From Winogradskyella sp. J14-2 (GTDB lineage: Bacteria > Bacteroidota > Bacteroidia > Flavobacteriales > Flavobacteriaceae), in contig NZ_CP019388.1 of assembly GCF_001971725.1 (NCBI RefSeq), positions 2,746,501-2,810,500 of the forward strand: 64,000 nt of DNA, read 5' to 3'. Both the position numbers and the translations under genes were made by a program. The notes below the pieces were generated by a model. The model was not told where the DNA came from, did no database searches, and saw nothing but the letters and a program-made list of their open reading frames with translations. Positions 13,816 through 54,298 of the stretch are shown here, piece by piece. Each line of letters opens with the position of its first letter. Within the stretch, counting starts at the first letter, position 1.

Positions 13816-15771
13816 ATGAAAATTAAATTCAATCATTTCATAATTTATGCGCTTTTTGTCCTTTTGGCATTTACATCATGTCAAGACGAAACCATAGATG
13901 TTAATAGTCCTCAAGATCAGGAGATGATTCAGCCTAACTCAGAGTTGGCAAGATTTATGGGTAATGTAACCGCCAACTATGGCGAATACGATAATATTTT
14001 AGATGACTCTAGCTGTTTTTCTGTGGAATTACCAGTGACAATAATAGTTGGCGATATTACAATTGTTATAGAAACTTTAAACGATTTAGAAGAACTAGAA
14101 GATATATTTTCTCAATATGAAGATGAAGATGATTTCTTCGATTTTGTGTTTCCAATTACAATAATTTTTAACGATTACAACCAAGTTATAATAGAAAACG
14201 AAGAGCAATTAGAAGATTTTATCGAAGATTGCGACCTCGAAGATGATGATGTTATTGAATGTGTAGATTTTGTATATCCAATAACGTTCTCCGTGTTTAA
14301 TGGTGACTTTAATATTGTAGATACGGTAACCATAGCTAATGATGAAGCACTATATAATTTTCTAGATGATTTAGAAGATGATGATAATGCACTTATTGTT
14401 AGTCTCAACTATCCTGTAACACTTGTTTATGCAAATGGAGCTACTGTTGAGGTAAATTCAAACCAGGAATTATCGGATGCTATTGAAGCCGCTGAAGACG
14501 ATTGTGATGACGATGACGACGATTGTGATCTTAATATTGAAGATATTGAAAATCTATTTCTAGAATGTGGTCTTGAAGCTGAATTTTATAACGAAAGTGG
14601 AGAATTAAGCGACACACTTCATCTTTATTTTAATGAAAACGGTGAAGTAACAGTAACTGGAGATCCAACGGTTGTTGAAACAGGTGAATGGGATGTCATA
14701 GAAACAGATTTAGGATATAAACTTGTTATAGAAGGATTAGAAACTTTCGGTACTGCTAATGGCTTATGGTTATTAATAGATTGCGACGACGATGATGAGC
14801 TTGAGTTTGAAAAAGAAACTGAGGACGGCATAGTTACTATGAAGCTAGAGCTAGATTGTGAAATCAACAATGAAGTTTTTGAATGTTTCGGTGATTTTGA
14901 ACTCCAAGAATGTTTAGGTCCAAATAATGAGGCTGAGTTTAATCTAAGTGCAGATACCATTGGTTTAATAGATTGCCAGTATGCTTTTGTAGCTAGTTTC
15001 CATGAAACTGAAGCCGATGCTGAAGCAGGAGTAAGTGCTATTGTAGAAACAGAATCGTATTGGTCTGGTACTGGTGAAGTGTACTTAAGAATTGAGGCAG
15101 AGAATGGTAATTTTGAAGTGTTTACTATTTATCTCAATACAGAAGAATGTAACTATTTTGAATGTTTTGAAAGTTTTGATGCTGTTATAGAACAATGTGA
15201 CAATGGTACTGATGGACCATATAGTTTTGACCTAACCATTGCATTTTCAAACTGTAATCCTAGTGCTGATGTTGTAACTTATCATGAGACTTTGGTAGAT
15301 GCTGAAACTGGTGTTAATGCAATTTCAAATCCAGAATCATATACAATCATTGGAGTAGAGGGTGTTGTGTATACTCGAGTTGTAATCGAAGATCAATTCG
15401 AGGTGTTTCCTATTGTTCTAGTTGTTCAAGACTGTAATCCATCAGGTTGCTCAGAACAAGATGTAGACGGCTTTTTAGTGGAGTGTATTTGGAATGCAGT
15501 AAACTACAATGGTAGTGATAATCTTATGAACTGGAATTTTGATTTTGAACCAAATAGCCAAACTGTTGTAATTTATAATAACGACACTACAATAGATGCA
15601 ACATGGACAACGTCTCAATCTAATGATGGTGTAATCCTCACATTTTCTAATGTGGCAGGACCAAATATTCAAGCAATAAACGGAGAGTGGTTGGTTGTAG
15701 AATGTGAAGAAGATCGTTTACAGTTGCACAGTGGAGATGATATTTTAGTTCTTGAGAGAACATGTAATTAA
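13816..15771 (+). CDS. Highly acidic repeat-containing lipoprotein beside the ECF sigma unit
   Basis: A 651-residue surface or periplasmic lipoprotein (FTSC lipobox, Cys22) of unrecognised family. It is strongly acidic, with Asp/Glu runs such as residues 227-237. I see internal duplications. Four copies of a short unit, each with a [VY]-[FYL]-P-[IV]-T core, start near residues 67, 107, 149 and 194. A larger domain occurs twice (about 240-335 and 548-645; both have LxECG/I...W and a late GLWLLIDC / GEWLVVEC strand). A third unit occurs twice (about 355-446 and 449-541) with the core HETEADAEAGVSAI / HETLVDAETGVNAI. The last unit resembles modules of the 2422-aa secreted protein at 44344. It is divergently transcribed from the sigma factor gene and ends at a good terminator. 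Calcium binding is plausible from charge but no canonical EF-hand is evident. Confidence 0.8.
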   Translation: MKIKFNHFIIYALFVLLAFTSCQDETIDVNSPQDQEMIQPNSELARFMGNVTANYGEYDNILDDSSCFSVELPVTIIVGDITIVIETLNDLEELEDIFSQYEDEDDFFDFVFPITIIFNDYNQVIIENEEQLEDFIEDCDLEDDDVIECVDFVYPITFSVFNGDFNIVDTVTIANDEALYNFLDDLEDDDNALIVSLNYPVTLVYANGATVEVNSNQELSDAIEAAEDDCDDDDDDCDLNIEDIENLFLECGLEAEFYNESGELSDTLHLYFNENGEVTVTGDPTVVETGEWDVIETDLGYKLVIEGLETFGTANGLWLLIDCDDDDELEFEKETEDGIVTMKLELDCEINNEVFECFGDFELQECLGPNNEAEFNLSADTIGLIDCQYAFVASFHETEADAEAGVSAIVETESYWSGTGEVYLRIEAENGNFEVFTIYLNTEECNYFECFESFDAVIEQCDNGTDGPYSFDLTIAFSNCNPSADVVTYHETLVDAETGVNAISNPESYTIIGVEGVVYTRVVIEDQFEVFPIVLVVQDCNPSGCSEQDVDGFLVECIWNAVNYNGSDNLMNWNFDFEPNSQTVVIYNNDTTIDATWTTSQSNDGVILTFSNVAGPNIQAINGEWLVVECEEDRLQLHSGDDILVLERTCN

Positions 15772-15824
15772 CATATAAACGAACCGCTTAGTTAGTAATT
15801 TTAGTAAGTTTAAGTTGATGAAGG

Positions 15825-15856
15825 GAGTTGCCAACCGCTAGGCAGCTCTTTTCTTT
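15825..15856 (+). terminator. Terminator after acidic lipoprotein gene
   Basis: GAGTTGCC at 15825-15832 pairs with GGCAGCTC at 15841-15848 (one G-U pair) over an 8-nt loop, followed by TTTTCTTTT. It lies 54 bp after the stop codon. Confidence 0.75.
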
Positions 15857-15923
15857 TGTGCTATTCTTAAATACATAAGTGCATAATTATAAATATCCCA
15901 TTCGTTTATCTCTTGTAAATTCT

Positions 15924-15931
15924 TAAATTTG
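15924..15931 (+). promoter_or_regulatory. ffh -7 promoter motif
   Basis: TAAATTTG matches TAnnTTTG and lies 24 bp before the ATG at 15956. A clear -33 TTG is not obvious. Confidence 0.5.
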
Positions 15932-15955
15932 CAACTTCTAAAAGAGATAAAGATT

Positions 15956-17287
15956 ATGTTCAATAATTTAAGTGATAAGTTAGATAAAGCGTTACACGTA
16001 TTAAAAGGACATGGAAGCATTACCGAAGTTAATGTTGCCGAGACTTTAAAAGAAGTAAGACGTGCGCTTTTAGATGCCGATGTTAACTTTAAAATAGCTA
16101 AGGAATTTACCAATAAGGTTAAAGAAAAAGCACTTGGCCAAAATGTATTAACGACACTTCAACCAGGCCAATTAATGGTTAAAATCGTTAAAGACGAATT
16201 AACCGAACTTATGGGAGGCGATGCAGAAGGTATTAACCTTTCTGGCAACCCGAGTGTAATTTTAATGTCTGGTTTACAAGGTTCTGGTAAAACGACGTTT
16301 TCTGGTAAGCTTGCTAACTATCTTAAAAATAAAAAAACAAAGAAGCCTTTATTAGTTGCCTGTGATGTTTACCGTCCAGCAGCGATAGATCAGCTTCATG
16401 TCGTTGGAGATCAAATCAACGTTGAGGTTTATAGTGACAAAGGAAATAGTGATCCGGTTGCTATTGCACAAGCAGGTATAGCTCATGCAAAAGCTAACGG
16501 TCACAATGTTGTAATAATAGATACCGCAGGTCGTTTGGCGGTTGATGAAGCAATGATGACTGAGATTTCTAACATTCATAAAGCTATTCAACCACAAGAA
16601 ACCTTGTTTGTGGTAGACTCTATGACAGGTCAAGATGCTGTAAATACAGCAAAGGCCTTCAATGATATTTTAAATTTTGATGGTGTTATCCTTACCAAGT
16701 TAGATGGTGATACACGTGGTGGTGCGGCAATATCAATTAAGTCGGTTGTAAACAAACCAATTAAGTTTATTGGTACAGGTGAGAAGATGGAAGCTATTGA
16801 TGTCTTCTATCCTTCGCGTATGGCAGACAGAATTCTTGGAATGGGAGACGTTGTATCTCTTGTAGAGCGTGCCCAAGAACAATTTGATGAAGAGGAGGCA
16901 CGCAAACTTCAAAAGAAAATTGCTAAAAACCAGTTTGGGTTTGATGATTTCTTAAAACAGATTCAGCAAATCAAAAAAATGGGTAACATGAAAGACTTAA
17001 TTGGCATGATACCAGGAGCTGGAAAAATGATGAAAGATATAGACATTGATGATGATGCTTTTAAAGGTATTGAAGCCATTATTCATTCTATGACACCTGC
17101 AGAACGTGCTAATCCTTCAATTATAAATTCAAGTAGAAAGAAGAGAATTGGCAAAGGATCGGGAACCTCAGTACAAGAAGTAAACCAGCTCTTAAAGCAA
17201 TTTACGCAAATGAGTAAAATGATGAAGATGATGCAAGGTGGTGGCGGAAAACGCATGATGCAGATGATGAAAAATATGCCGAGATAG
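15956..17287 (+). CDS. ffh: Signal recognition particle protein Ffh (SRP54)
   Basis: A 443-residue SRP GTPase that binds signal sequences of nascent membrane proteins with the SRP RNA and docks to FtsY. The N domain opens MFNNLSDKLDKAL. The G domain shows GLQGSGKTTFSGKLA (P loop), DTAGR (G3) and TKLDGDTRGGAA (G4/G5). The M domain from about residue 300 is methionine-rich and ends in a Met-rich tail (MSKMMKMMQGGGGKRMMQMM), binding signal peptides and SRP RNA. An in-frame extension to 15929 overlaps the -7 motif, so the ATG at 15956 is chosen. The SRP RNA gene itself was not seen in the window. Confidence 0.98.
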   Translation: MFNNLSDKLDKALHVLKGHGSITEVNVAETLKEVRRALLDADVNFKIAKEFTNKVKEKALGQNVLTTLQPGQLMVKIVKDELTELMGGDAEGINLSGNPSVILMSGLQGSGKTTFSGKLANYLKNKKTKKPLLVACDVYRPAAIDQLHVVGDQINVEVYSDKGNSDPVAIAQAGIAHAKANGHNVVIIDTAGRLAVDEAMMTEISNIHKAIQPQETLFVVDSMTGQDAVNTAKAFNDILNFDGVILTKLDGDTRGGAAISIKSVVNKPIKFIGTGEKMEAIDVFYPSRMADRILGMGDVVSLVERAQEQFDEEEARKLQKKIAKNQFGFDDFLKQIQQIKKMGNMKDLIGMIPGAGKMMKDIDIDDDAFKGIEAIIHSMTPAERANPSIINSSRKKRIGKGSGTSVQEVNQLLKQFTQMSKMMKMMQGGGGKRMMQMMKNMPR

Positions 17288-17293
17288 TTAGCG

Positions 17294-17390
17294 GTAAACA
17301 GTATAAAGTAAGCAGTCACTTCGAGCGTAGTCGAGAAGTTATAAATATATTTTCAATTAGCTTTTGCGCCTTCGCGTCTTAGCGAGAAAA
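17294..17390. repeat. Compound intergenic repeat between ffh and folD
   Basis: Three repeat types are packed together. Heptads GTAAACA, GTATAAA, GTAAGCA and GTCACTT lie at 17294-17321. An interrupted palindrome follows, ACTTC at 17318-17322 and GAAGT at 17335-17339 flanking GAGCGTAGTCGA. A GCG-rich stretch (TTTTGCGCC, TTCGCGTCTTAGCGAG) at 17362-17386 ends just before folD. The last two resemble dispersed Bacteroidota intergenic repeats. No terminator with a T-tract is seen after ffh, so the palindrome may serve that purpose. Confidence 0.55.
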
Positions 17391-17399
17391 CAATAAAAA

Positions 17400-18278
17400 A
17401 TGACCATACTAGACGGAAGAAAAACCAGTAACGACATTAAAAACGAAATAAAAGCCGAAGTTGATAAAATGAAGGCTAATGGCGAAAAGGTGCCTCACCT
17501 TGCCGCAGTAATTGTTGGCAATGATGGTGCAAGTTTAACCTATGTAGGAAGTAAAGTTAGAGCTTGCGAGCGTGTTGGTTTTGAATCTACGATGGTCCGT
17601 TTACCAAATACTACAAGCGAAATAGAACTTCTAGATACTATTGAAGATCTTAATAACAATGATGACATAGACGGTTTTATCATTCAATTACCATTACCAC
17701 CGCAGATTAATACGCGCAAAGTGTTAATGGCAGTAAATCCCGATAAGGATGTTGATGGTTTTCATCCAACCAACTTCGGAAAAATGGCGTTGGATATGTC
17801 TACCTTTATACCAGCAACACCATTTGGAATTTTAGAGCTCTTAGATCGTTATGGTGTGGAGACTAAAGGAAAACATACGGTTGTTATAGGTCGTTCGCAC
17901 ATTGTAGGTCGCCCTATGAGTATATTAATGGGAAGAAAAGGATTTCCAGGAAACTCAACGGTAACACTAACCCATAGCCATACCAAAAACATAACTCAAA
18001 TAACATCACAAGCTGATATTATTATTTCAGCATTGGGTATTCCACAGTTTTTAAAAGCCGAGATGGTAAAGGATGATGCAGTTATAGTAGATGTAGGTAT
18101 TACACGTGTCCCAGACGAATCTGAAAAAGGCTACTACATAACGGGAGATGTAGATTTTGAAAATGTTAGTAAAAAGGCAAGTTTTATAACACCTGTGCCA
18201 GGTGGTGTAGGACCTATGACCATTGCTATGCTCCTTAAAAATACATTGTTGGCTAGAGAACAGCATAGGCAAAAGTAA
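17400..18278 (+). CDS. folD: Bifunctional methylenetetrahydrofolate dehydrogenase/cyclohydrolase
   Basis: A 292-residue cytosolic enzyme interconverting 5,10-methylene-, methenyl- and 10-formyl-tetrahydrofolate for one-carbon metabolism. The family motifs are all visible: the Tyr-x-x-x-Lys pair in TYVGSKVRACERVGF, DKDVDGFHPTNFGKM, the nucleotide-binding VVIGRSHIVGRPMS and the C-terminal PVPGGVGPMTIAMLL. Length is normal for FolD. It follows ffh by 112 bp filled by intergenic repeats, and a membrane-protein gene follows after 66 bp. Confidence 0.98.
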   Translation: MTILDGRKTSNDIKNEIKAEVDKMKANGEKVPHLAAVIVGNDGASLTYVGSKVRACERVGFESTMVRLPNTTSEIELLDTIEDLNNNDDIDGFIIQLPLPPQINTRKVLMAVNPDKDVDGFHPTNFGKMALDMSTFIPATPFGILELLDRYGVETKGKHTVVIGRSHIVGRPMSILMGRKGFPGNSTVTLTHSHTKNITQITSQADIIISALGIPQFLKAEMVKDDAVIVDVGITRVPDESEKGYYITGDVDFENVSKKASFITPVPGGVGPMTIAMLLKNTLLAREQHRQK

Positions 18279-18344
18279 TAACGTCTTAAAAATTCAAAGT
18301 AATTTCTTAACTTTAGAAGAAACAAATTTTTTAAAAAAGTCCCA

Positions 18345-19082
18345 ATGTTTTTATTGCTTAAAGACGTATCTGCTGGCTCTTTGCAACACTTATTACCTAT
18401 TGGCATTGGTATTGTTTTTTGCATTAGTGTTATTTTGTTTGCTAAACGTCGGTTAAATTTTAAAAACCGAAGCCTCCTTTTCAAAGGTCTAGGTGTTTTT
18501 GTAGCAGGCACGATTCTATTAAATCATGCGTTTCTAATAATTATTGGCGACTACGATTACCGCAACGATTTACCGCTTTGGATTTGTAGTTTTGCAGGTT
18601 TGTTAGTGCCTTTCTTTACGTTTACTCGGAAATTTTGGATGTTTGAAATACTATTGTTTTGGACCCTAGGTGGTTCTATACAAGGTGTTATAACCCCTAA
18701 TATTTCTGAAGGCTTTCCGTCTTTTGAATATTTTAGGTATTGGATAACACATATTTTTATGTTTTCAATTGTATTCTATAGTATCGTTATTTTTAAAATG
18801 TGGCCCAATTTTAAAAGTCCTCTAAAATCTATTGTAGCACTGCAAATATACGTGGCACTTATATTTTTACTTAACATCGTATTAAAAACAAACTTTTTCT
18901 TTTTAAATGCAAAACCAGACTTTCCTTCATTGTTAGATTATATTGCTGACTGGCCGTATTATATATTTATAATACAACTCATAATCATCCCTTATTTTTT
19001 GCTTTTATATTTGCCTTTCTATCTCCTAAAGAAAAGACGAAGAAAAAAAATTACGTTGCAAACAACTGACTCATATCCCTAA
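18345..19082 (+). CDS. YwaF-like (TIGR02206 type) integral membrane protein
   Basis: A 245-residue polytopic membrane protein with about seven predicted helices, for example [33 protein letters not shown], the [16 protein letters not shown] segment, [15 protein letters not shown] and the final [17 protein letters not shown] helix followed by a Lys/Arg-rich tail. The DLPLWICS and [10 protein letters not shown] motifs are those of the YwaF/TIGR02206 family, whose function is unknown. Its 3' end overlaps the convergent VOC gene by 32 bp, so there is no room for an intergenic terminator. Confidence 0.8.
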
Positions 19083-19470
19083 ATGCTTTAAACTCTAAGG
19101 CATTTCCTGAAGGGTCTTTAAAAAACATTGTGGCTTGTTCACCTACTTGTCCTTCAAAACGTATATAAGGTTCAATAATAAATTTAATGTTTTTGCTTTT
19201 TAGTAATTCTGCAAAATCCTGAAAGGCTTGCCACTGTAAGACCACACCAAAATGTGGCACAGGTACATCTTTACCATCTACAGAATTAGTATGTGCGTCC
19301 TCCTTGGTTTTTGGTTTCAGATGGATCACTAATTGATGTCCAAAAAAGTTGTAATCTACCCAATGGTCGCTACTTCTGCCTTCTTCAAAATTAAGGATAT
19401 TGGTGTAGAAATTTCTACATTCTGCAAGGTCGTCTACCGGAATTGCAAGATGAAATGGAGATAATGCCAT
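19051..19470 (-). CDS. VOC superfamily protein (glyoxalase-like)
   Basis: A 139-residue vicinal oxygen chelate protein. It opens [24 protein letters not shown] with the first metal-ligand His in place, has HQLVIHLKP in the middle and [13 protein letters not shown] at the start of the second half, and closes with [15 protein letters not shown], where the final Glu matches a metal ligand of the family. All positions needed for a metal site appear present, so it may be a true dioxygenase or lyase, but the substrate is unknown. It is the last gene of a closely spaced minus-strand run and overlaps the convergent YwaF-like gene by 32 bp. Confidence 0.82.
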
Positions 19471-37713: not shown

Positions 37714-39744
37714 ATGAAAAAAATACTACTCTTAGTTTCTATTGTTATATCAAGTTTTGTCCACGGTCAAAATATCGTAATGCAAAATGGAACTATTAGT
37801 ACGTGCTCAGGGATGTTTTATGACTCTGGTGGTGCGTTTTCTAATTACGCAAGCAACGAAAATTATACTTTAACGATTTGCCCTGAAGATGAAGGGCAAA
37901 GAATTAGACTAGATTTCATCGATTTTCAAACCCAACTCAACCTAGATTTTATAACCATATATGATGGTGATGATAATACAGCATCAATGATTGGTAGTTT
38001 TACTGGTGTAAGTTCTCCTGGACTAGTATTTGCCGGATTTAATAACCCTACGGGTTGCTTAACCATCGAGTTTACTTCAAATGCAACAGGGCAAGCTTCA
38101 GGTTGGGAAGCCAATATTTCTTGTGCACAACCTTGTCAAGACATCACCGCGGTTTTAGATTCTACATTACCTATGCCAAATAATGAAGGTATTATAGAAG
38201 TCTGTGTAGGTGACACTATAAATCTAAATGGTAGTGGAGTTTTTGAAGTCGATGGCACTGATGCCACTTACACTTGGTTACTTGGTGATGGTAATACTGT
38301 AGATGGTGAAAATGTTACTATTTCTTACAACCAACCAGGAGTCTACCTGGTAAATCTTCAAATAAGGGATACCAATATGGATAATTTTATGGATGGTTGT
38401 CCCAGTACTAATTCTATAAATCAAGTAATAAGAGTATCTGGTATTCCAAATTTCGGTGGCACAGAGGCAGCAGATGCAACGCTATGTTTTGGGGACTCAA
38501 CAACCATTACTGGTGTAGCAAACCCTTTAACTCTGGTGTATAATTGCCCACCACCAGAGAGTGAGGAGACTTTTCTGCCAGATGGAAGTGGAATTGCGTA
38601 CAGAACCTGTATCAATGTAACCTGTTTTGGACCAAATGAAGTTTTAACCGATGTATCTCAAATTTTAGATATCTGTATGAATATAGAACATTCTTATTCC
38701 GGCGATTTAGACATTTTTCTCGAAAGTCCAACAGGCCAAGAAGTAAGATTATTCGATCAGGCTGGTGGTGGTACCTACTTTGGTGGAGCTAATGATGATG
38801 AAACTCTCATGCCTGGAATAGGGGAAGACTATTGTTTTTCTATGAGCGCCTCTACATTTTTGGCTGATGCACCTACTGAGATTAATGGTACACCACCTCG
38901 AGACTCATGGATTCCTGGAACCTATCTGCCCGTTGAGAGTTTTAATGCCCTATTAGGAAGTCCACTTAATGGTGAATGGTGTGTTAGAATTGTAGATAAT
39001 TTAGCAATAGATAATGGCTATATTTTTTCATGGGAACTCAATTTCGACCCTGCTCTCGATTTACAAGATTTTACTTATACACCTCAAATAAATGCTCAAT
39101 CTTGGGATGCAGACTCGAGTATCACAGAAATTAATGGCAATACAATTACAGTTGCACCAAACTCTGCAGGAGAACATTGTTACACCTTTAGAACGGTAGA
39201 CGAATTTGGATGTGAATACACTGAAGAAGTTTGTGTTACGATGACAGAAGAAGGTCAGCCGCCAACAACCTTTTACGAAGACTTAGATGGTGATGGGTAT
39301 GGAGATCCAAATAGTGCCATCGTAGATTGTTCCGATACTCCACCTCTGGGATATGTGGTAAATGGCCTAGATTGTAATGATGCAAATAATCAGATAAATC
39401 CCGATGCCACTGATTCTGAAGGCAATGGTGTTGATGAAAACTGTGATGGAGTTGATGGGGATTTATTGAGTATCGATGACTTAAGTATAAATAGTATCGA
39501 GATTTTACAAAATCCGTTTAAAGATAATATTACTTTAAATCTACCAGAACAGCTTATAGGCTCAAAAATAGATGTTGTAATTTACGATATGAGTGGTCGC
39601 AGCATCTACAATAATACTTTAGATTGTATTGCAAGCGAAATGAAAATAACAGGCTTGAGTACTCTAGAGAAGTCCCAATACTTTATTGAAATATCAAATG
39701 AAGCTATAGGGTTAAAGGCTGTTGAAAAAATCGTGAAGCATTAA
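37714..39744 (+). CDS. Secreted CUB-PKD-P-domain protein with T9SS type A sorting domain
   Basis: A 676-residue exported protein. The signal peptide is followed by a CUB-like domain (about 22-137; DSGGAFSNYASNENYTLTICP, RLDFIDFQTQ, WEANISC), a PKD domain (about 160-240; TYTWLLGDGNTV, YNQPGVYLVNLQIRD), a proprotein-convertase P-like domain (about 300-450; MNIEHSYSGDLDIFLESPTGQ, FDQAGGGTYFGGANDDE, GEWCVRIVDNLAIDNGYIFSW) and an Ig-like strand set. A MopE-type metal-binding repeat follows (YEDLDGDGYGDPN, LDCNDANNQINPDA, GVDENCDGVDGD), and the last 80 residues are a T9SS type A sorting domain. The first 500 residues closely parallel the N-terminus of the 2422-residue protein at 44344. No catalytic protease domain is visible, although P domains often accompany peptidases. 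Confidence 0.9.
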   Translation: MKKILLLVSIVISSFVHGQNIVMQNGTISTCSGMFYDSGGAFSNYASNENYTLTICPEDEGQRIRLDFIDFQTQLNLDFITIYDGDDNTASMIGSFTGVSSPGLVFAGFNNPTGCLTIEFTSNATGQASGWEANISCAQPCQDITAVLDSTLPMPNNEGIIEVCVGDTINLNGSGVFEVDGTDATYTWLLGDGNTVDGENVTISYNQPGVYLVNLQIRDTNMDNFMDGCPSTNSINQVIRVSGIPNFGGTEAADATLCFGDSTTITGVANPLTLVYNCPPPESEETFLPDGSGIAYRTCINVTCFGPNEVLTDVSQILDICMNIEHSYSGDLDIFLESPTGQEVRLFDQAGGGTYFGGANDDETLMPGIGEDYCFSMSASTFLADAPTEINGTPPRDSWIPGTYLPVESFNALLGSPLNGEWCVRIVDNLAIDNGYIFSWELNFDPALDLQDFTYTPQINAQSWDADSSITEINGNTITVAPNSAGEHCYTFRTVDEFGCEYTEEVCVTMTEEGQPPTTFYEDLDGDGYGDPNSAIVDCSDTPPLGYVVNGLDCNDANNQINPDATDSEGNGVDENCDGVDGDLLSIDDLSINSIEILQNPFKDNITLNLPEQLIGSKIDVVIYDMSGRSIYNNTLDCIASEMKITGLSTLEKSQYFIEISNEAIGLKAVEKIVKH

Positions 39745-44343: not shown

Positions 44344-47300
44344 ATGAAGTATTTATTAACTTTAATAGCAGTAGTATTTTCATCGGTATTGATAGCTCAA
44401 GATGTGAATATGCAAAATGGGACAGTTAGCCAATGTGGTGGAGTTTTTTATGACTCTGGCGGTGAGTTTGGGAATTATGGAAATGATGAAAGCTTTGTCT
44501 TAACAATTTGTCCTGAGAATCCGGGACAGAGGGTTATATTAGATTTTACAGAGTTTAATACCCAGTTAAATGCAGATGTAATGGTCATTTACAATGGTGA
44601 CTCAACGGCAGCAGATGCTTTTGGTACATTTTCTGGTGTTACCTCCCCTGGCTTGGTTGCTGCTACTGAAGAAAATACTGGTGGCTGTTTAACAATTCAA
44701 TTCACATCAAATGGTTCTGCCAATGGTAGTGGTTGGGCCGCAAATATTTCGTGTTTAACACCTTGTCAATCTATTAATTCTCAGATAGACTCTTCCATTC
44801 CCACACCAAATGCAGATGGTTATATAAGAGTGTGCCCTAATGAAGAGATAACTTTAAACGGTAGTGGTATTTTTGAAGTAGACGGTACAGGAGCTACCTA
44901 TGAATGGGATTTAGGAGATGGCAATACGGTAAGTGGTCAAACAGCTGTTTTTTCTTATCCAGACCCAGGCGTTTACATCGTAAATTTAAACATTAGGGAT
45001 GCCAATACATCTGAAGATCCAGAAGGTTGTCCCAATACCAATCTTATAAATCAAGTAATACAAGTTGGTACAGAGCCAGACTTTGCTGGTACTGTCGCTG
45101 CAGAAACTACAATATGCTATGGTGAAAGTACAGATATCACAGGAGTTGTTAATCCGGTTCAATTCATAAACGACTGTACACCGCCAGTAGCCGAGCAAAC
45201 ATTTTTACCAGATGGATCGGGTCAACAATATACCTCTTCAATAGTGGTAGATTGTTTTGAGTCTTCTCAAACACTTACTGATCCTAATCAATTAATAGAG
45301 GTCTGTCTCAATATGGAGCATTCTTACTCAGGCGATTTAGATATTTTTATTGAGGGTCCAAGCGGACAGGAGATTAGGTTATTCGATCAAGCTGGTGGTG
45401 GTACATATTTTGGAGGAGCCAATGACGACAATTCTCTAGCACCAGGAACCGGAGAGACCTATTGTTTTTCTATGAATGCTTCTGTCTTATTAGAGGATGC
45501 GCCAACAGAAATTAACGGTACAAATCCACCAAATAATTCTTGGGTGCCAGGTACTTACCTGCCGTTTGAAAGTTTTAACGGTTTACTTGGTACTCAATTA
45601 AATGGAACTTGGACTATTAGAGTTGTAGATAATTTAAACATTGACAACGGATATATTTTTGAATGGTATATGAATTTCGATCCAGCTATTCAACCACCAG
45701 AATTATCATTTACTCCAGTAATTACATCAGAAGAATGGGATGCAGACCCTACAATAACCAATACAAATGGAAATATTATAACTGTAACTCCACCTGATGC
45801 AGGTCAATATTGCTACACATACAGAGCTATGGATGATTTTGGTTGCGAGTATACAGAAGAAGTTTGTATTGATGTATTGCCAGAAATAGTTACAGAAGCA
45901 CCGAATAACCTGTTTATTTGCGACACTGGTGTGCCACCATACATATTCGACCTAGAAACTAATACGGCAGTTGTTTTAGCAAGTGCAACAAATGCTAGTG
46001 AACTAGAGGTTACTTATCATAATTCACAAGCAGATGCAGATGCGGACGTCGGAGCCATAACAGGTTTGAATGCTTATTCTGGTGCCGACGGTGAAATTAT
46101 TTATATGAGAGTTGAATATTTAAACTCTGGCTGTTACGAAGTAGTATCATTTACGTTGAATGTATCTGGTCAACCAGATATTAATCCTGTTCCAGATTTA
46201 GAGCTATGTGATGATCCATCAGGTGATGGAGTAGAAGAATTTGACCTAAGTTTACAAACTGTTGGAATCCTAGGTGCTCAGGCTGCCTCAGATTTTAACG
46301 TTACCTACCATTTAAGTTTTGCAGATGCAGACTCAGGTGTTGGTGCTTTACCTAATTTATATACTAGTGGGAATGCTCAAATTTTTGTGAGAGTAGAAAG
46401 CGTAGGAGATTCTAGTTGTTACAATGCTTCCGCTAACCCAGTTTTTAATTTGGTCATTATCCCTCGCGATGATGCTACATTTACAATGACACCAACTTGT
46501 GACGGTGCAACAGTCGATGCTCCTTTGGCCACTCCTGGTGGAGTATTTGAATTTACCGGCTTTCCTGGCGTAGGCGTAAATATAGATCCTGCTACTGGTG
46601 AAGTTACCGGAGCAACTTCTGGATTACCATACGAAGTCCAATACACCACGTCTGGTGTTTGTTCGAGTGTTTTTACATTTACATTTACAGTATTAACTGA
46701 AGATGATGCTAGTTTTACCGTAATACCATCTTGTGATGGTGGTACCGCGAATATATCAGGAGATGTAGGCGGAATATTTAGTTTTAATCCTATTCCAACA
46801 GATGCAGCTGTAATTGATGCAGTCACTGGGACCGTTACCAATGGTACTCCTGGTGCCACGTATACTATAGAATATACAACTACAGGTACATGTCCTTCTA
46901 CCAATACTCAAGATCTTACAGTTTTAAATTTAGATAATCCAAACTTTACGTTAACTGCGACTTGTAATGGTGCAGTCGCTGCTGTCACTGGCGATTTAGG
47001 AGGTACGTTTGAACTAAATCCCGTACCTACCGATACCGCTGAAATAGATCCTATTACAGGAACTATAACTAATGGAGTTTCTGGGACAACATATACCGTT
47101 GAATATACAACCAATGGTGACTGTCCACAATCCTCTGTTCAAAATGTTACAGTACTAGATTCAGATGATGCTAGCTTTACAGTAACACCTACGTGTGATG
47201 GAGCCACAAGTGTTATAGACGGAACGGTTGGTGGAATATTTAGTTTTACTCCAGATCCTGCTGATGGTGCTATATTAGATGTCACTACAGGTGAAGTAAC

Positions 47301-50300
47301 AAATGGAATACCAGGAAGCACATATACTATTTCATATACAACTACAGGTGTTTGCTCAAATACTCAATCTGTAACATTTGATGTTTTACAAGAAGAAGAC
47401 GCCAGCTTTAATGTTTCACCTACATGCGATGGCGGTGAAGTAACTGTAATAGGTGATTTAGGTGGTACGTTTAGCTTTAATACAATACCCTCAGATGCTG
47501 CAATTATAGATATAAATACAGGTGATGTTACTAATGGTACACCAGGTGAAACTTATACCATTGAGTATGTAACTTCTGGTGCTTGCCCAAATAATAGTAT
47601 TATAACTTTTACTGCTAACCCTTTACCCACGTTAGTATCTCCATTACCGTTAGAGGTATGCGACGACGGAACACCAGACGGATTTACGGCGATAGATTTA
47701 AACGTTAAGAATGGTGAGATCAGTGGCAATAATCCAACCTATACGGTAAGTTATTATTTTGATCTGGCGGATGCAGAATCAGGGTTAAATCCCTTAGCGA
47801 TACCATACACCAACGTTAGCAATCCACAGACTATTTTCGTACGCGTAGAGGACAACGCAACAGGTTGTTACGACACCACGACCATGGTATTGGAAGTACA
47901 ACAGGCGCCAGTAGCCAACACCCCAACACCGTTGTATTATTGCGATCCGGACAATGATGGCTTTGGTGTATTTGATTTAACAGCAGCCGATAACGAGATT
48001 ACCGGAGGGGCAGCAGGTCTAACGGTAACATATCACGAGACCTTTGCCAATGCAGACAATAATGTGGACGCTATAGACACTACAACGAGCTATAATAATA
48101 TAGTTGAAGGCGCCCAATTACTCTATGCAAGAGTAGAGAGTGAAACGATTGCCACCGATTGTGCCACCATTGTAGAATTAGCGTTATTTGTAGAAGAGAC
48201 CCCTCAAATTATAGTGCCGTCGGCATTAGAAGTATGTGATGATGACACAGATGGTTTTGCACAGTTTGATTTAACGAGTAAGGAAGATGAGCTGTTAAAC
48301 GGTGCAGCGCCTTCAGATTACGATATAACGTATTACCAGACAGAGCTCAATGCCAACGACGCCAACAATCCAATCGCAAACCCGACCGCCTACACCAATA
48401 CGATAGCAGAGATGGATGAAGTGTGGGTACGTGTAGAAGACCCAGATACCACAGGCGGTTGTTACAAGGTAACACGCTTAGAGCTCATCGTAAACCCATT
48501 ACCAGTATTGGTTCAGTCAGCGCCATTGGTGTTGTGTGATGCCCTAACCTTAGGGGATGAACAAGAAGCCTTCACGCTTGAAGATGCTAATGCCGAGATA
48601 CTGAACGGACAGACAGGAATCACACTGACCTATTATGAGACCCAGCAAGATGCGAATGATGCAGAAAACCCAATAGCGAGTCCATATGTCAATACAATGA
48701 ATGCACAGACGATTTACGTACGAGGGGAAAATGATGTTACGGGCTGTTACAGTACGATAACCCTCACGTTACGAGTAGACCCAATACCATCACCAAGCCC
48801 AGACCCAGATCCAATCGAGGTCTGTGACGATGACAATGATGGTTTTGCGGAGTTCGATCTGGAGGTCCGTACGGTAGAGATCACCAATGGTGAGGCAGAT
48901 GTGGTTATCACCTACCATGAGACTGAGGAAGAGGCCGAACAAGGGGTTAATGCCATCACAGGGTTATATACCAACATTGTAGCCAATACCCAAATGATTT
49001 ATGTGCGTTCAGAAAGTACGATTACAGGGTGTTACAGTTTAACACAAAGCACATTAGAGCTCGTTGTAGTACCATCGCCAGAAGTACCGACCAATCTAGC
49101 GCCGATAGAAATCTGTGATGCTAACGCTGACGGTTTTGCACAATTTGATTTAAACCAGCAAGAAGCTGTAATTTTAGGCACACAAGACCCATCAGAGGTA
49201 GAGTTAACCTACCATGTAACAGCAGCAGATGCAACGGCAGGGAATAACCCAATAATAAACACGGGTAATTATACCAACACTGTCAACCCACAGATCATCT
49301 ATGTAAGGTTATCCAACCCGAGCACAGGCTGTCAAGACACAGGTGCGTTTGAGATCATCGTGCAATTACCACCAGAGCCAGTACAGCCAACACCTTTAGA
49401 GCTGTGCGATGACCTAGATGAAGACCCAGGCGATGAGATCACCGTATTTGATTTAACAGTAAAAGACTCTGAAATCACCAACGGTAACGCAAGTTGGTCA
49501 GTAGCCTATTATGAGACCAGTGCAGATGCGCAATTGCAGACCAATGCCATAGCAGACCCAACGCAGTATACCAACACCTCGGTAAATGGACTTCCGGCGA
49601 ATCCGCAGACCTTATATGTTGTAGTTACCGATACCGATACAGGATGTGTAGCCTTTACGACAATGACCATACGCGTATTGCCAAATCCAACACCAACGCC
49701 AAGCGACCAAATTCCAGACTTAGAGTTGTGTGATGATATCAATACAGGAGATGGAGTAGAAGTGTTCGATTTAACGCAAAACGAAGTATTGATTTTAAAT
49801 GGTGAAAATGGGGTAACGCCAACCTACCATGAGAGTTCAGAAGATGCCTATGCAGGGGATAATGCCATAGCAGACCCAACACAGTACACCAATGTAGACA
49901 TACCAGAACAGGACATTTACGTAAGAGTCACCAACAATGCAACCGGTTGTTATGCTGTAGTTAGCTTTACAATATTTGTGCACCCATTACCAGAGGTAGT
50001 GGCCGTAACGGACTTTATACAGTGCGAACTGAATACAGACGGAATAGATAATTTTGACTTAACAACAAAAGATGAAGAAGTCCTAAACGGACAAGATCCA
50101 ACACGTTATATCGTCACCTACCATGAGACCTTGGCAGATGCTGAAGCAGAGATGAACGCGCTTGTAAGTCCGTACACCAACACAAGCAATCCCCAAGAGC
50201 TCTATGTAACCATTACAGACAACGTAACGGGATGTTCTATAAGTACACAGCGCTTTAATCTACAAGTAGATGAAGCAGCACAAGCCAATCCAGATATGGT

Positions 50301-51612
50301 AGATCTAACCTATGAGGAATGTGATGATGATATAGAGAACGATTTGGACCCAAGTAACGACAGTACACAGTTTACCTTATCAACACAAGATGCGTTTGTG
50401 TTAGACGGACAAGATCCGGCAAATTATATAGTAACTTATTATGCAACAGAAGCCGATGCTAATTTAAACGTAAACCCATTGCCAGACCTGTACGAAAATG
50501 TTGTGAACCCACAAGTGGTTTATGCAAGAGTGGATAACAATACTCAGGTCGTAATACCAATAGCCTTAGATCTAACAGCCTTAACAACGGGATTAGATTT
50601 AGACGGCGACGGTACAATAGATACCTACGACACGGATGCCGATGGTGTGTTTGATTTGATAGACGTGGACGGAGACGGACTGTCAGACGGTATCGATGCC
50701 AATGGCGACGGTCTGTTCGAGTTTGTGGATATAGATGGGGACGGCAACGGAGATCCGGTAGACCTCAACAACGATGGGGTGTTTGATAATCAGCAAGACG
50801 GATCCATATGTTACGAAGTAGCGCCACTGACACTTCAGGTAAACCCAAAGCCAAACTTCGATTTATTGGAGAGTTATATTCTATGTGTCGGCACAAACGG
50901 AACAGAGTTTTTAGATCCATTAGTATTGGACACCGAGTTGTCGGGTACCGGCTATACTTTTGAGTGGACCCTTAACGGAGAGGTCATCGCAACGGCAACA
51001 GGCCCTAGCATAATGCCAACACAGGGAGGAACCTATGGTGTTACGGTAACCGATATAGGCACCTCAATGGAGACCAACTGTGAGACCTATGATGAGACTA
51101 TTGTAGTAGAAAGTGCGCCGCCAATGCTAACCGCAAACTTTGTCACACAATTTTTTGGTGAAAATAATGTTATAGAAGCAACGGTAACGGGAATAGGGGA
51201 GTATGAGTTTAGTTTAGATGGAGGTCCCTGGGAAGACGCATTAGAAGACGGAACCATACAATTTACCAATGTATCACAAGGATTACACACGGTAACGGCA
51301 AGAGATAAGACAGGTTGTGGCATTGCTACAGAGACGGTATTTGTTGTAGATTACCCCAAGTATTTTACACCAAATGGGGATGGTATACATGAAACATGGA
51401 ACATAGAAGGTATTGGAAGTAATGCCAAAATTTATATATTTGACCGCTACGGGAAACTGTTAAAGCAGTTAAGCTCGACAGGTCAAGGATGGGACGGGAC
51501 GTTCAACGGTAACAACATGCCATCGAGCGATTACTGGTTTACGGTAGAGTACCTAGAGCCCCTGACCAACCAAACCAAAGAGTTCAAAGCCCATTTTACC
51601 TTGAAACGTTAA
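44344..51612 (+). CDS. Giant multi-module secreted adhesin-like protein with T9SS type B sorting domain
   Basis: A 2422-residue exported protein. After a signal peptide (1-19) come a CUB-like domain (about 25-137), PKD domain (160-242), P-like domain (310-446) and Ig-like unit (452-512), matching the 676-residue protein at 37714. Then follow two modules of type II (core ICD/LCDD...FDL...TYH...ADAD...GCY), five tandem modules of type I of about 75 residues (core DDASFTV..TCDG...GG.FSF...TNG.PG.TYTIEYTT), and from residue 1100 ten more type II modules of about 95-100 residues. The tenth holds an insert of Asp-rich DxDxDG-type loops at about 2083-2140. The end is a gliding-motility-associated T9SS type B C-terminal domain (YFTPNGDGIHETWNI). 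Surface export and adhesion are inferred. Base composition changes near 47,640. Confidence 0.9.
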   Translation: MKYLLTLIAVVFSSVLIAQDVNMQNGTVSQCGGVFYDSGGEFGNYGNDESFVLTICPENPGQRVILDFTEFNTQLNADVMVIYNGDSTAADAFGTFSGVTSPGLVAATEENTGGCLTIQFTSNGSANGSGWAANISCLTPCQSINSQIDSSIPTPNADGYIRVCPNEEITLNGSGIFEVDGTGATYEWDLGDGNTVSGQTAVFSYPDPGVYIVNLNIRDANTSEDPEGCPNTNLINQVIQVGTEPDFAGTVAAETTICYGESTDITGVVNPVQFINDCTPPVAEQTFLPDGSGQQYTSSIVVDCFESSQTLTDPNQLIEVCLNMEHSYSGDLDIFIEGPSGQEIRLFDQAGGGTYFGGANDDNSLAPGTGETYCFSMNASVLLEDAPTEINGTNPPNNSWVPGTYLPFESFNGLLGTQLNGTWTIRVVDNLNIDNGYIFEWYMNFDPAIQPPELSFTPVITSEEWDADPTITNTNGNIITVTPPDAGQYCYTYRAMDDFGCEYTEEVCIDVLPEIVTEAPNNLFICDTGVPPYIFDLETNTAVVLASATNASELEVTYHNSQADADADVGAITGLNAYSGADGEIIYMRVEYLNSGCYEVVSFTLNVSGQPDINPVPDLELCDDPSGDGVEEFDLSLQTVGILGAQAASDFNVTYHLSFADADSGVGALPNLYTSGNAQIFVRVESVGDSSCYNASANPVFNLVIIPRDDATFTMTPTCDGATVDAPLATPGGVFEFTGFPGVGVNIDPATGEVTGATSGLPYEVQYTTSGVCSSVFTFTFTVLTEDDASFTVIPSCDGGTANISGDVGGIFSFNPIPTDAAVIDAVTGTVTNGTPGATYTIEYTTTGTCPSTNTQDLTVLNLDNPNFTLTATCNGAVAAVTGDLGGTFELNPVPTDTAEIDPITGTITNGVSGTTYTVEYTTNGDCPQSSVQNVTVLDSDDASFTVTPTCDGATSVIDGTVGGIFSFTPDPADGAILDVTTGEVTNGIPGSTYTISYTTTGVCSNTQSVTFDVLQEEDASFNVSPTCDGGEVTVIGDLGGTFSFNTIPSDAAIIDINTGDVTNGTPGETYTIEYVTSGACPNNSIITFTANPLPTLVSPLPLEVCDDGTPDGFTAIDLNVKNGEISGNNPTYTVSYYFDLADAESGLNPLAIPYTNVSNPQTIFVRVEDNATGCYDTTTMVLEVQQAPVANTPTPLYYCDPDNDGFGVFDLTAADNEITGGAAGLTVTYHETFANADNNVDAIDTTTSYNNIVEGAQLLYARVESETIATDCATIVELALFVEETPQIIVPSALEVCDDDTDGFAQFDLTSKEDELLNGAAPSDYDITYYQTELNANDANNPIANPTAYTNTIAEMDEVWVRVEDPDTTGGCYKVTRLELIVNPLPVLVQSAPLVLCDALTLGDEQEAFTLEDANAEILNGQTGITLTYYETQQDANDAENPIASPYVNTMNAQTIYVRGENDVTGCYSTITLTLRVDPIPSPSPDPDPIEVCDDDNDGFAEFDLEVRTVEITNGEADVVITYHETEEEAEQGVNAITGLYTNIVANTQMIYVRSESTITGCYSLTQSTLELVVVPSPEVPTNLAPIEICDANADGFAQFDLNQQEAVILGTQDPSEVELTYHVTAADATAGNNPIINTGNYTNTVNPQIIYVRLSNPSTGCQDTGAFEIIVQLPPEPVQPTPLELCDDLDEDPGDEITVFDLTVKDSEITNGNASWSVAYYETSADAQLQTNAIADPTQYTNTSVNGLPANPQTLYVVVTDTDTGCVAFTTMTIRVLPNPTPTPSDQIPDLELCDDINTGDGVEVFDLTQNEVLILNGENGVTPTYHESSEDAYAGDNAIADPTQYTNVDIPEQDIYVRVTNNATGCYAVVSFTIFVHPLPEVVAVTDFIQCELNTDGIDNFDLTTKDEEVLNGQDPTRYIVTYHETLADAEAEMNALVSPYTNTSNPQELYVTITDNVTGCSISTQRFNLQVDEAAQANPDMVDLTYEECDDDIENDLDPSNDSTQFTLSTQDAFVLDGQDPANYIVTYYATEADANLNVNPLPDLYENVVNPQVVYARVDNNTQVVIPIALDLTALTTGLDLDGDGTIDTYDTDADGVFDLIDVDGDGLSDGIDANGDGLFEFVDIDGDGNGDPVDLNNDGVFDNQQDGSICYEVAPLTLQVNPKPNFDLLESYILCVGTNGTEFLDPLVLDTELSGTGYTFEWTLNGEVIATATGPSIMPTQGGTYGVTVTDIGTSMETNCETYDETIVVESAPPMLTANFVTQFFGENNVIEATVTGIGEYEFSLDGGPWEDALEDGTIQFTNVSQGLHTVTARDKTGCGIATETVFVVDYPKYFTPNGDGIHETWNIEGIGSNAKIYIFDRYGKLLKQLSSTGQGWDGTFNGNNMPSSDYWFTVEYLEPLTNQTKEFKAHFTLKR
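50587..50800 (+). repeat. Asp-rich calcium-binding-like loop repeats within the giant protein
   Basis: This DNA encodes consecutive loops such as LDLDGDGTIDTYD, DTDADGVFDLID, VDGDGLSDGIDANGDG and DIDGDGNGDPVDLNNDG, resembling thrombospondin type 3 or dockerin-like calcium loops. They interrupt the last type II module between its VYARVDN strand and its ICYEVAPLTLQV strand. Confidence 0.7.
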
Positions 51613-51630
51613 AAGAAATTATGTTAAATA

Positions 51631-51662
51631 AAAAAGCCTGAACAGTATGTTCAGGCTTTTTT
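51631..51662. terminator. Bidirectional terminator after the giant protein gene
   Basis: GCCTGAAC at 51636-51643 and GTTCAGGC at 51649-51656 form a perfect stem flanked by A5 on the left and T6 on the right, so it can serve both the giant gene and the convergent FadL-like gene. Confidence 0.9.
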
Positions 51663-53239: not shown

Positions 53240-54298
53240 CTATCCTCTACCTCGTCTACCACCACCAGAGCGTACACCACCAGATGACCTTGAGCTTCCC
53301 CCAGATCTCATACTACCCGATGATCTCGATGAAGAACCCCGTGACGATCTTACTGAACCAGACGATCTAGAGCTTCTTGAAGATCTCATTGTTCCAGATG
53401 ATCTACTGCTTCTTGTAGATCTTGTGGCTCTTGATGATCTTGTTGTGGTAGGCCTTGTCATTCTACTATTAGATGATCTAGATGAAGAATTTCTTATAGT
53501 GCCATTTCTGGATGAGCGAATCGCTGAGTTAGATCTCCTAGCGCTGGTACGTGAAGCATCTCGCGATAGTCGGTTTGTAAAATAATCTCTTCTAGATAGA
53601 GCAGAATTACTTCTACTAGATCTGTTTAGGTAACTATTATTTAGTACAGAGCCCCTTCTTCCACCATTAAAGGCATAACGATTACCTCTGTAATAACCAT
53701 TCCAGCCCCAATTATTCCAACCATTGCCCCATCCAGGGCCCCAGCCCCAATTGTTCCAGCCTAAGCCCCAGCCTGCATTCCAGCCCCAGTTGTTCCAACC
53801 TAAGCCCCAACCTGCATTCCAGCCCCAAGGTCGTCCCCAACCCCAGTTATTCCAGCCCCAACCAGCGTTCCAAAGCCATGGATCGTTCCAACCTAACCAG
53901 CCGTTATCTATAATGTTAATGGTAACATTATCGTTATTTTGTCCCCAGCCACCATAGGCAGGTCTTTCTTCAATAGTGTCTTGTGTATTATTTAAGTAAT
54001 TACCTTCATAAGAATCTACATCTGTAAAAATTTCATTATTTTCTCTAGCAGCATCTATTTGGGCAGCATTTTCAGCAAAATAATTCTTGTAATAATCAGA
54101 ACCAGAAGAAGAAGTGGTTGCTACTGGTTGTTCAACAACAGTTGTTCCATAATTTTCATTATTTCCATTTTCGGACGAATATATACCGTCATCATCGTAA
54201 CCTACATATTGAAAAGAACCACATGACGTTAACACGGCAATTAAACCGATTGCAACAAAAAATGGCAATTTGTGTTTTGTAATAGTTTTAAATTGCAT
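53240..54298 (-). CDS. Trp/Gly/Asn-repeat and RS-rich lipoprotein
   Basis: A 352-residue predicted lipoprotein (VLTSC, Cys26) with no family I can name. After an acidic, Asn/Tyr-rich segment comes a tryptophan-rich tract (about residues 118-209) built of WGW/WNNWG units, including two tandem copies of the 13-residue unit WNAGWGLGWNNWG. I count about 23 Trp in roughly 92 residues. From about residue 225 to the end the protein is dominated by Arg-Ser pairs and Gly (RSSRSSGTMRSSRSS-like), giving a strongly basic tail. Such low-complexity proteins recur in Flavobacteriia. It precedes the FadL-like gene by 35 bp and may be co-transcribed, while proS is divergent. Confidence 0.8.
   Translation of the reverse strand: MQFKTITKHKLPFFVAIGLIAVLTSCGSFQYVGYDDDGIYSSENGNNENYGTTVVEQPVATTSSSGSDYYKNYFAENAAQIDAARENNEIFTDVDSYEGNYLNNTQDTIEERPAYGGWGQNNDNVTINIIDNGWLGWNDPWLWNAGWGWNNWGWGRPWGWNAGWGLGWNNWGWNAGWGLGWNNWGWGPGWGNGWNNWGWNGYYRGNRYAFNGGRRGSVLNNSYLNRSSRSNSALSRRDYFTNRLSRDASRTSARRSNSAIRSSRNGTIRNSSSRSSNSRMTRPTTTRSSRATRSTRSSRSSGTMRSSRSSRSSGSVRSSRGSSSRSSGSMRSGGSSRSSGGVRSGGGRRGRG

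Follow-up and report, generated by a model that had tools for sequence, protein, structure and literature searches.

The gingipains and HagA of Porphyromonas gingivalis are surface proteins of the type IX secretion system (T9SS) with adhesin regions that are shared between loci, and in this they resemble the gene described here. The nearest precedent, as far as it has been described, is a 10 kb inverted repeat of Flavobacterium psychrophilum, which contains genes for an adhesin, a PorP/SprF protein and an outer membrane protein (PMC5808330). SprF has been reported to be bound by SprB (PMC9143113). According to work on Flavobacterium johnsoniae, three type B substrates without an sprF neighbor use one common shuttle. 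A sorting domain with 68% identity to that of a shuttle's own substrate was accepted by this shuttle, and domains with 43% or 26% identity were not (PMC12618676). Long-lasting concerted evolution of duplicated protein genes has been reported as rare in prokaryotes (PMC6053082), and the bias of gene conversion in bacteria is disputed, with reports for it (PMC4450053) and against it (PMC8153448).

The window analyzed here is the whole stretch of 64,000 nucleotides taken from the chromosome of Winogradskyella sp. J14-2 (contig NZ_CP019388.1), and the features of its giant gene are collected in Table 1. The N-terminus of the encoded protein resembles a signal peptide by eye, the CUB, PKD, P_proprotein and CHU_C matches all lie above the Pfam cut-offs, and the C-terminus reaches 115 bits against TIGR04131 (cut-off 35), which identifies a type B sorting domain. 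Five type I repeats, read from the translation, precede the break in composition, and ten type II modules, detected with an HMM built from the type II repeats, follow it; two further type II modules are located in the AT-rich front, at residues ~520–707. The type II module profile has no match among PDB sequences at E 0.01. A sprF-like gene, usual but not universal behind type B substrates, is absent from the 1.5 kb behind the window gene. Upstream of it, at a distance of 4.6 kb, a 676-aa paralog of its head is encoded (37714–39744, plus strand), 60% identical over residues 1–515, which lacks a stalk and has a different C-terminus that looks by eye like a type A sorting domain. On the minus strand, positions 53240–54298 encode a 352-aa low-complexity protein, G/W/N-rich and then S/R-rich, within a kilobase of 44% GC.

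Table 1. Features of the giant gene and its borders (positions in the window)
Feature	Position	Strand	Basis and remarks
Giant secreted protein gene, head–tail mosaic	44344..51612	+	ORF, 2422 aa; type B T9SS substrate
Head	44344..47640	+	CUB, PKD, P domain, two type II modules, five type I repeats; GC3 0.207
Two type II modules outside the shared tract	45901..46464	+	HMM matches; GC3 0.25 and 0.20; control within the same gene
Tail	47647..51612	+	Ten type II modules, end region, sorting domain; GC3 0.411
Tract of 3,965 bp with zero differences from the tail of the gene at L009:7314-14165	47659..51623	+	BLAST, base-by-base alignment
T9SS type B sorting domain (TIGR04131, CHU_C)	51346..51609	+	Residues 2335-2422; profile matches
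Vestige of the donor locus: 8-base spacer and ATG of the donor sprF-like gene	51613..51623	+	Alignment; no sprF behind
Perfect 9-bp inverted repeat and T run, terminator-like, kept by the recipient locus	51636..51662	+	By eye

The original prediction described this gene as a mosaic in which module type and base composition change together near 47.64 kb. The full-length GC3 profile, which it had proposed as a check, contains one strong step, and the best change point of the ORF falls at codon 1101 (nt 47,647), so that the predicted position holds; the gain in log-likelihood is 58.9, compared with a maximum of 9.2 in 1000 codon permutations. From head to tail, GC at fourfold sites rises from 0.196 to 0.426, with T falling from 0.42 to 0.13 and A moving from 0.39 to 0.44. 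Single lines of sequence counted by hand had exaggerated the contrast, since the mean GC is 39.0% in the front and 44.6% in the back, and the back part, taken for two-fifths of the protein, comprises about 1,321 of its 2,422 residues (55%). The border between type I and type II modules does coincide with the break, but the two type II modules of the front retain a low GC3 (Table 1), so that module type and composition change together only in part.

A search of the own genome with the back part revealed a second full copy of the tail, ~0.41 Mb from the window gene, in a giant ORF of 2283 aa (L009:7314–14165). The head of this partner is different, with CUB, PKD and choice-of-anchor L domains; its type B sorting domain is the same. 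Behind the partner, 8 bases after its stop codon, a PorP/SprF-like gene begins. The borders of the identical tract are sharp. Upstream of the junction the similarity between both genes drops at once, while at the other side the 3,965-bp identity continues 11 bases beyond the stop and ends at the ATG of the partner's sprF, beyond which the window keeps its own hairpin. In G026, G001 and G005, the bases behind the stop of the window-locus copy differ. Because the identity ends at the ATG of the donor sprF, and because other window-locus copies differ behind the stop, the window gene is the recipient and the sprF-linked locus (locus D) the donor, a direction of copying that these sequences show for this genome only. 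The composition break in the window gene is a recombination junction.

The arrangement is not confined to this strain. Sixty genomes of the genus, drawn from a larger set and counting the window's own, were searched at the DNA level. Copies found inside a genome had nearly equal scores; compared with the window, they are 68–80% identical in those genomes that were examined further. Seven Winogradskyella genomes, the draft G001 and six assemblies of one or two contigs, were compared closely, and the same two loci, locus D and a folE–fadL locus, are present in all of them. The head at the folE–fadL locus is of the window type (W) in four genomes and of another type (V) in three, and orthologous heads are 60–91% identical in the three other genomes compared. 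Within each of the seven genomes the tails of the two loci are 97.3–99.98% identical over 3.8–5.4 kb, while the window tail protein is only 67–84% identical to the tails of the six other species, so that paralogous tails within a genome are more alike than orthologous tails between species. Between the window's genome and G026, cysS, folE and lgt have ~94% protein identity and the tail 84%; tails therefore diverge rapidly from species to species, yet remain alike inside any one of them. A sprF-like gene lies directly behind locus D in all six genomes with downstream sequence, and behind none of the 11 other copies.

Phylogenetic analysis separates the two parts of these genes. In a tree of 14 tail rows the copies pair by genome in 7/7 cases, and in one of 18 rows, to which further paralogs had been added, in 6/7, the G011 pair not being resolved. 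In the head tree, W heads and D heads each group by locus; V heads are not one clade, G033 and G011 standing together and G046 apart. In AU tests, in which two sets of identical rows were left free, by-genome pairing of the heads was rejected in six of seven genomes (it was not rejected in G046, p 0.22), and a single clade of D tails was rejected as well (p 0.021). The reading that best accounts for these data, with a probability of about 0.87, is that the tails undergo recurrent ectopic gene conversion, that is, concerted evolution of a constant cassette made of stalk and sorting domain. The sequences show two giant genes with very different heads, one at locus D and the other at the folE–fadL locus, whose rear 3.8–5.4 kb are kept near-identical, and in the window's genome this part was copied from D into the window gene. 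Had the tail been duplicated or replaced just once and recently in this strain, with no long-term homogenization, the two copies would likewise be identical over 3,965 bp, but this is very improbable, given that six other species carry the same two loci with near-identical tail pairs of their own and that tails pair by genome. As to the original prediction, the recombination mosaic, sorting domain included, is shown directly by the identical 3,965 bp in another gene of the same chromosome, and a single joining to a resident front is not, since tails are homogenized in all seven genomes and in other genera too. Full-length co-linear relatives with the same gradient, which it had named as evidence against mosaicism, do exist; mosaicism nevertheless stands, because the tails of these relatives are homogenized likewise.

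Draft assemblies carry a trace of the same repeat. Thirty draft genomes with an orthologous front were examined (match from about residue 1 to at least residue 610; G001 left out). In all 30, no more than 2 kb separate the end of the front match from the end of its contig, against ~1.4 expected from rounded sizes and contig counts. All 15 plus-strand drafts run off the contig in an open frame, and the contig of G023 ends at LEVCDDGTP, which is where identity begins in the window. In a scan of named records, three of the nine Winogradskyella tail loci are tail-only contigs of 3,022–4,327 bases, as expected from a collapsed repeat; a stand-alone tail contig of W. marincola, 4,226 bases long, carries a coverage of 785 in its title. 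It could be argued that the identity itself is an artefact, since assembling a near-identical repeat of 4 kb is difficult and polishing can increase the apparent similarity of copies. This is hardly credible, because a single contig of 3.35 Mb carries both copies in the same orientation, the copies still differ by 0.02–2.7% in other genomes assembled into one or two contigs, and the breaks of draft contigs at this place are those that a genuine repeat would cause. A practical consequence is that draft assemblies break at such genes, and that databases will hold truncated heads.

In the family, 115 of 120 genomes searched have a tail match; these 120 were drawn from a larger group and include the window's own genome. 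Across the 119 sampled other-genus genomes, long matches reach at best 67% and short pieces 69%. In four one-contig genomes of other genera, chosen because their copies scored alike, the tails within a genome are 94.8–99.8% identical, and in three of the four a sprF lies directly behind exactly one of the copies examined; in G127 a sprF match is located ~1.6 kb behind a tail copy. Among other copies found, the G160 pair is 98.4% identical over 4,427 bp, and G146 holds a second copy at 100%.

The window's genome contains other repeated genes of this kind. A second homogenized pair (L092:6623–10210 and 15294–18881, at G000:C1 ~1.87–1.89 Mb) shares the end of a giant gene, a sprF-like gene and a 639-aa gene, with 98.3% identity over 3,592 bp; an upstream part of its giant genes is 80% alike, and its sprF copies have a GC3 of 0.48. 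Two more type B genes (L093:15392–16638 and 17857–19103) have ends that are 92% alike over 1,248 bp.

Import of the tail from a GC-richer organism, followed by its spread, would fit the silent-site composition of the tails, which is unlike that of their own genome in every multi-copy lineage mapped. Import is nonetheless highly improbable. Neither the 119 other-genus genomes nor the named records hold a closer relative of the tail outside the genus: nine of the ten tail loci in the named-record scan belong to Winogradskyella, and the tenth is a 43% match over 48 residues, so that different best-hit taxa, which the original prediction had named as a sign of mosaicism, were not found. Within the donor gene GC3 already rises ~170 codons before the tract, modules upstream of this rise being AT-rich, and the second homogenized pair, which belongs to another gene family of the same genome, also has a part with raised GC3, its sprF copies included.

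Composition tracks the shared tract and not the module type. Of 16 Winogradskyella genes with a mapped tract, among them an E/F pair of G011, eight have the GC3 change point no more than 2 codons from the tract border and 12 no more than 40 codons from it; in the remaining four it is found 145–462 codons upstream of the present tract, and these steps may mark older, longer tracts. The mean GC3 of type II modules is higher inside the tract than outside it in all 15 genes that have both, and module type was rejected as the cause of the shift, since type II modules outside the tract do not show it. Modules with a copy of at least 95% identity in another gene exceed those below 70% in mean GC3 in 7/7 genomes, but the rank correlation has p <0.05 in only 4/7. 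With none, one and three sharing genes, mean module GC3 in G011 is 0.415, 0.513 and 0.706, and with none, one and two it is 0.418, 0.601 and 0.719 in G033. In all 28 mapped genes, which come from 12 genomes in six genera, fourfold GC is higher inside the tract, a result for which the fair count is 12, as copies within a genome are not independent; in G127 the rise at the tract border is slight (0.13 to 0.18 and 0.06 to 0.19).

A change-point test using all four letters yields gains of 29–105 in 26/26 multi-copy genes. Its control set consisted of 29 long genes, the fetched locus L118 having been dropped because it held no ORF of sufficient length. In 21 of them the step is weak or missing (gains 2.3–19.9), with six slightly exceeding their own maximum of 200 permutations; for the one gene of these 21 that was searched for copies, that of G064, nothing was found beyond 114 bp at 88%. 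The tract is confined to the gene end in two other controls, the multi-copy L092 pair, whose gains are 11.4 and 8.8. The last six have strong steps (gains 30–221) and evidence of copies, and they were moved to the multi-copy side after the step had been seen, so the contrast is not blind. This evidence is direct for the G160 pair, originally fetched as a suspected pair, and for G146, whose gain of 159 prompted the search that found the second copy; it consists of partial copies on other contigs for G173, and it is indirect, from contig edges, for G015 and G112. One gene of G173 (C9, L113) has fourfold A/C/G/T frequencies of 0.33/0.21/0.12/0.35 before codon 735 and 0.08/0.47/0.44/0.02 after it.

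Codon selection, either for expression or for folding of the stalk, could produce such a step with the shared tract being incidental. It would account for the avoidance of T-ending codons in most lineages, which is not expected from mutation or symmetric conversion alone. This explanation is unlikely, however, because head and tail are read in one frame, the shift is absent from type II modules that lie outside the tract in the same gene, and 21 of the 29 control genes have a weak step or none. The ribosomal protein region of the own genome goes the opposite way, with T at 0.51 of fourfold sites in 28 pooled ORFs, a base that the tail avoids. Expression-type codon choice, which the original prediction had offered as its alternative, is not supported as the cause on these two grounds, the shift within one frame and the preference of the ribosomal region for T.

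The alternative of GC-biased conversion fits the direction of the shift, the tract borders and a hint of dose. It does not fit the unequal change of A and T in the tracts, where T is lost and A is kept or raised in many lineages, and as the whole cause it is contradicted by this asymmetry; it explains part of the shift at most. Recent changes could be polarized by relatives in few cases, and those of G011 and G005 point in opposite directions. No recombination or uptake word is common to ten tails among the top five over-represented 7-mers of each, measured against codon-shuffled versions of the tails, a few being shared by two tails. It is tentatively proposed, with somewhat more doubt than confidence, that the silent-site composition of the tract may result from a long history of multi-copy conversion, in which GC-biased conversion is combined with a lineage-specific A/T asymmetry. 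A separate observation concerns the tails of G137 and G160 (L103, L104, L114, L115), in which A is ~0.09 at fourfold sites and T is kept, the reverse of Winogradskyella.

In the proposed mechanism of recurrent tail conversion, copying would proceed by homologous recombination of the RecA type, seeded in the array of type II modules, and its benefit would be a common anchor for proteins with different heads. With an identical tail, the window protein would continue to fit the SprF of locus D. There is about an even chance that this protein, for lack of its own sprF, can use that SprF as shuttle and anchor by virtue of the identical sorting domain. A wider proposal, less than evenly probable, is that Flavobacteriaceae possess a constant-region system, in which an sprF-linked master locus overwrites the tails under different heads and one shuttle would serve several heads, the copying reshaping the silent sites of the tract through biased conversion and lineage-specific strand asymmetry. 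In many species one half of such a gene stays near-identical between loci and the other half diverges, which suggests that a common stalk or anchor is selected for. As head and tail are in one frame, the gene separates effects of expression on base composition from effects of recombination, and the question of bias in bacterial conversion becomes directly testable in these genes. If the constant-region system is real, it would constitute a natural experiment for biased gene conversion in bacteria.

When the open-access literature on type IX secretion, Winogradskyella, flavobacterial adhesins or Bacteroidetes surface proteins was searched for gene conversion or concerted evolution, no account of this pattern was found among the matches listed. 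The variation of gingipains and HagA is described as arising through gene conversion and allelic exchange between strains, with no common tail under different heads in the available account (PMC5266723). As in bacterial GC-biased gene conversion, the recombining sequence is GC-richer independently of optimal codons, whereas here the step lies inside single genes, at the borders of conversion tracts, and has an A/T asymmetry (PMC4450053). The orphan substrates of F. johnsoniae are alike in having no sprF neighbor, a shuttle from another locus and cross-recognition of similar sorting domains; these domains are >44% alike, not identical through conversion, and homogenization is not described in the text available (PMC12618676). 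In F. psychrophilum, an adhesin and sprF region likewise occurs twice in one chromosome and is recombination-active, undergoing inversion, but there three genes form the repeat, while the window pair shares only the tail, with sprF at one locus, so that the L092 pair is the closer likeness (PMC5808330). The concerted evolution reported for duplicated prokaryotic genes has in common with the present case that paralogs within a species are closer than orthologs between species (PMC6053082). The words surface, adhesin and Bacteroidetes do not occur in the main text of that report as available, and the genes described here differ in that they encode giant surface proteins, of which only the rear half is homogenized while the heads diverge.
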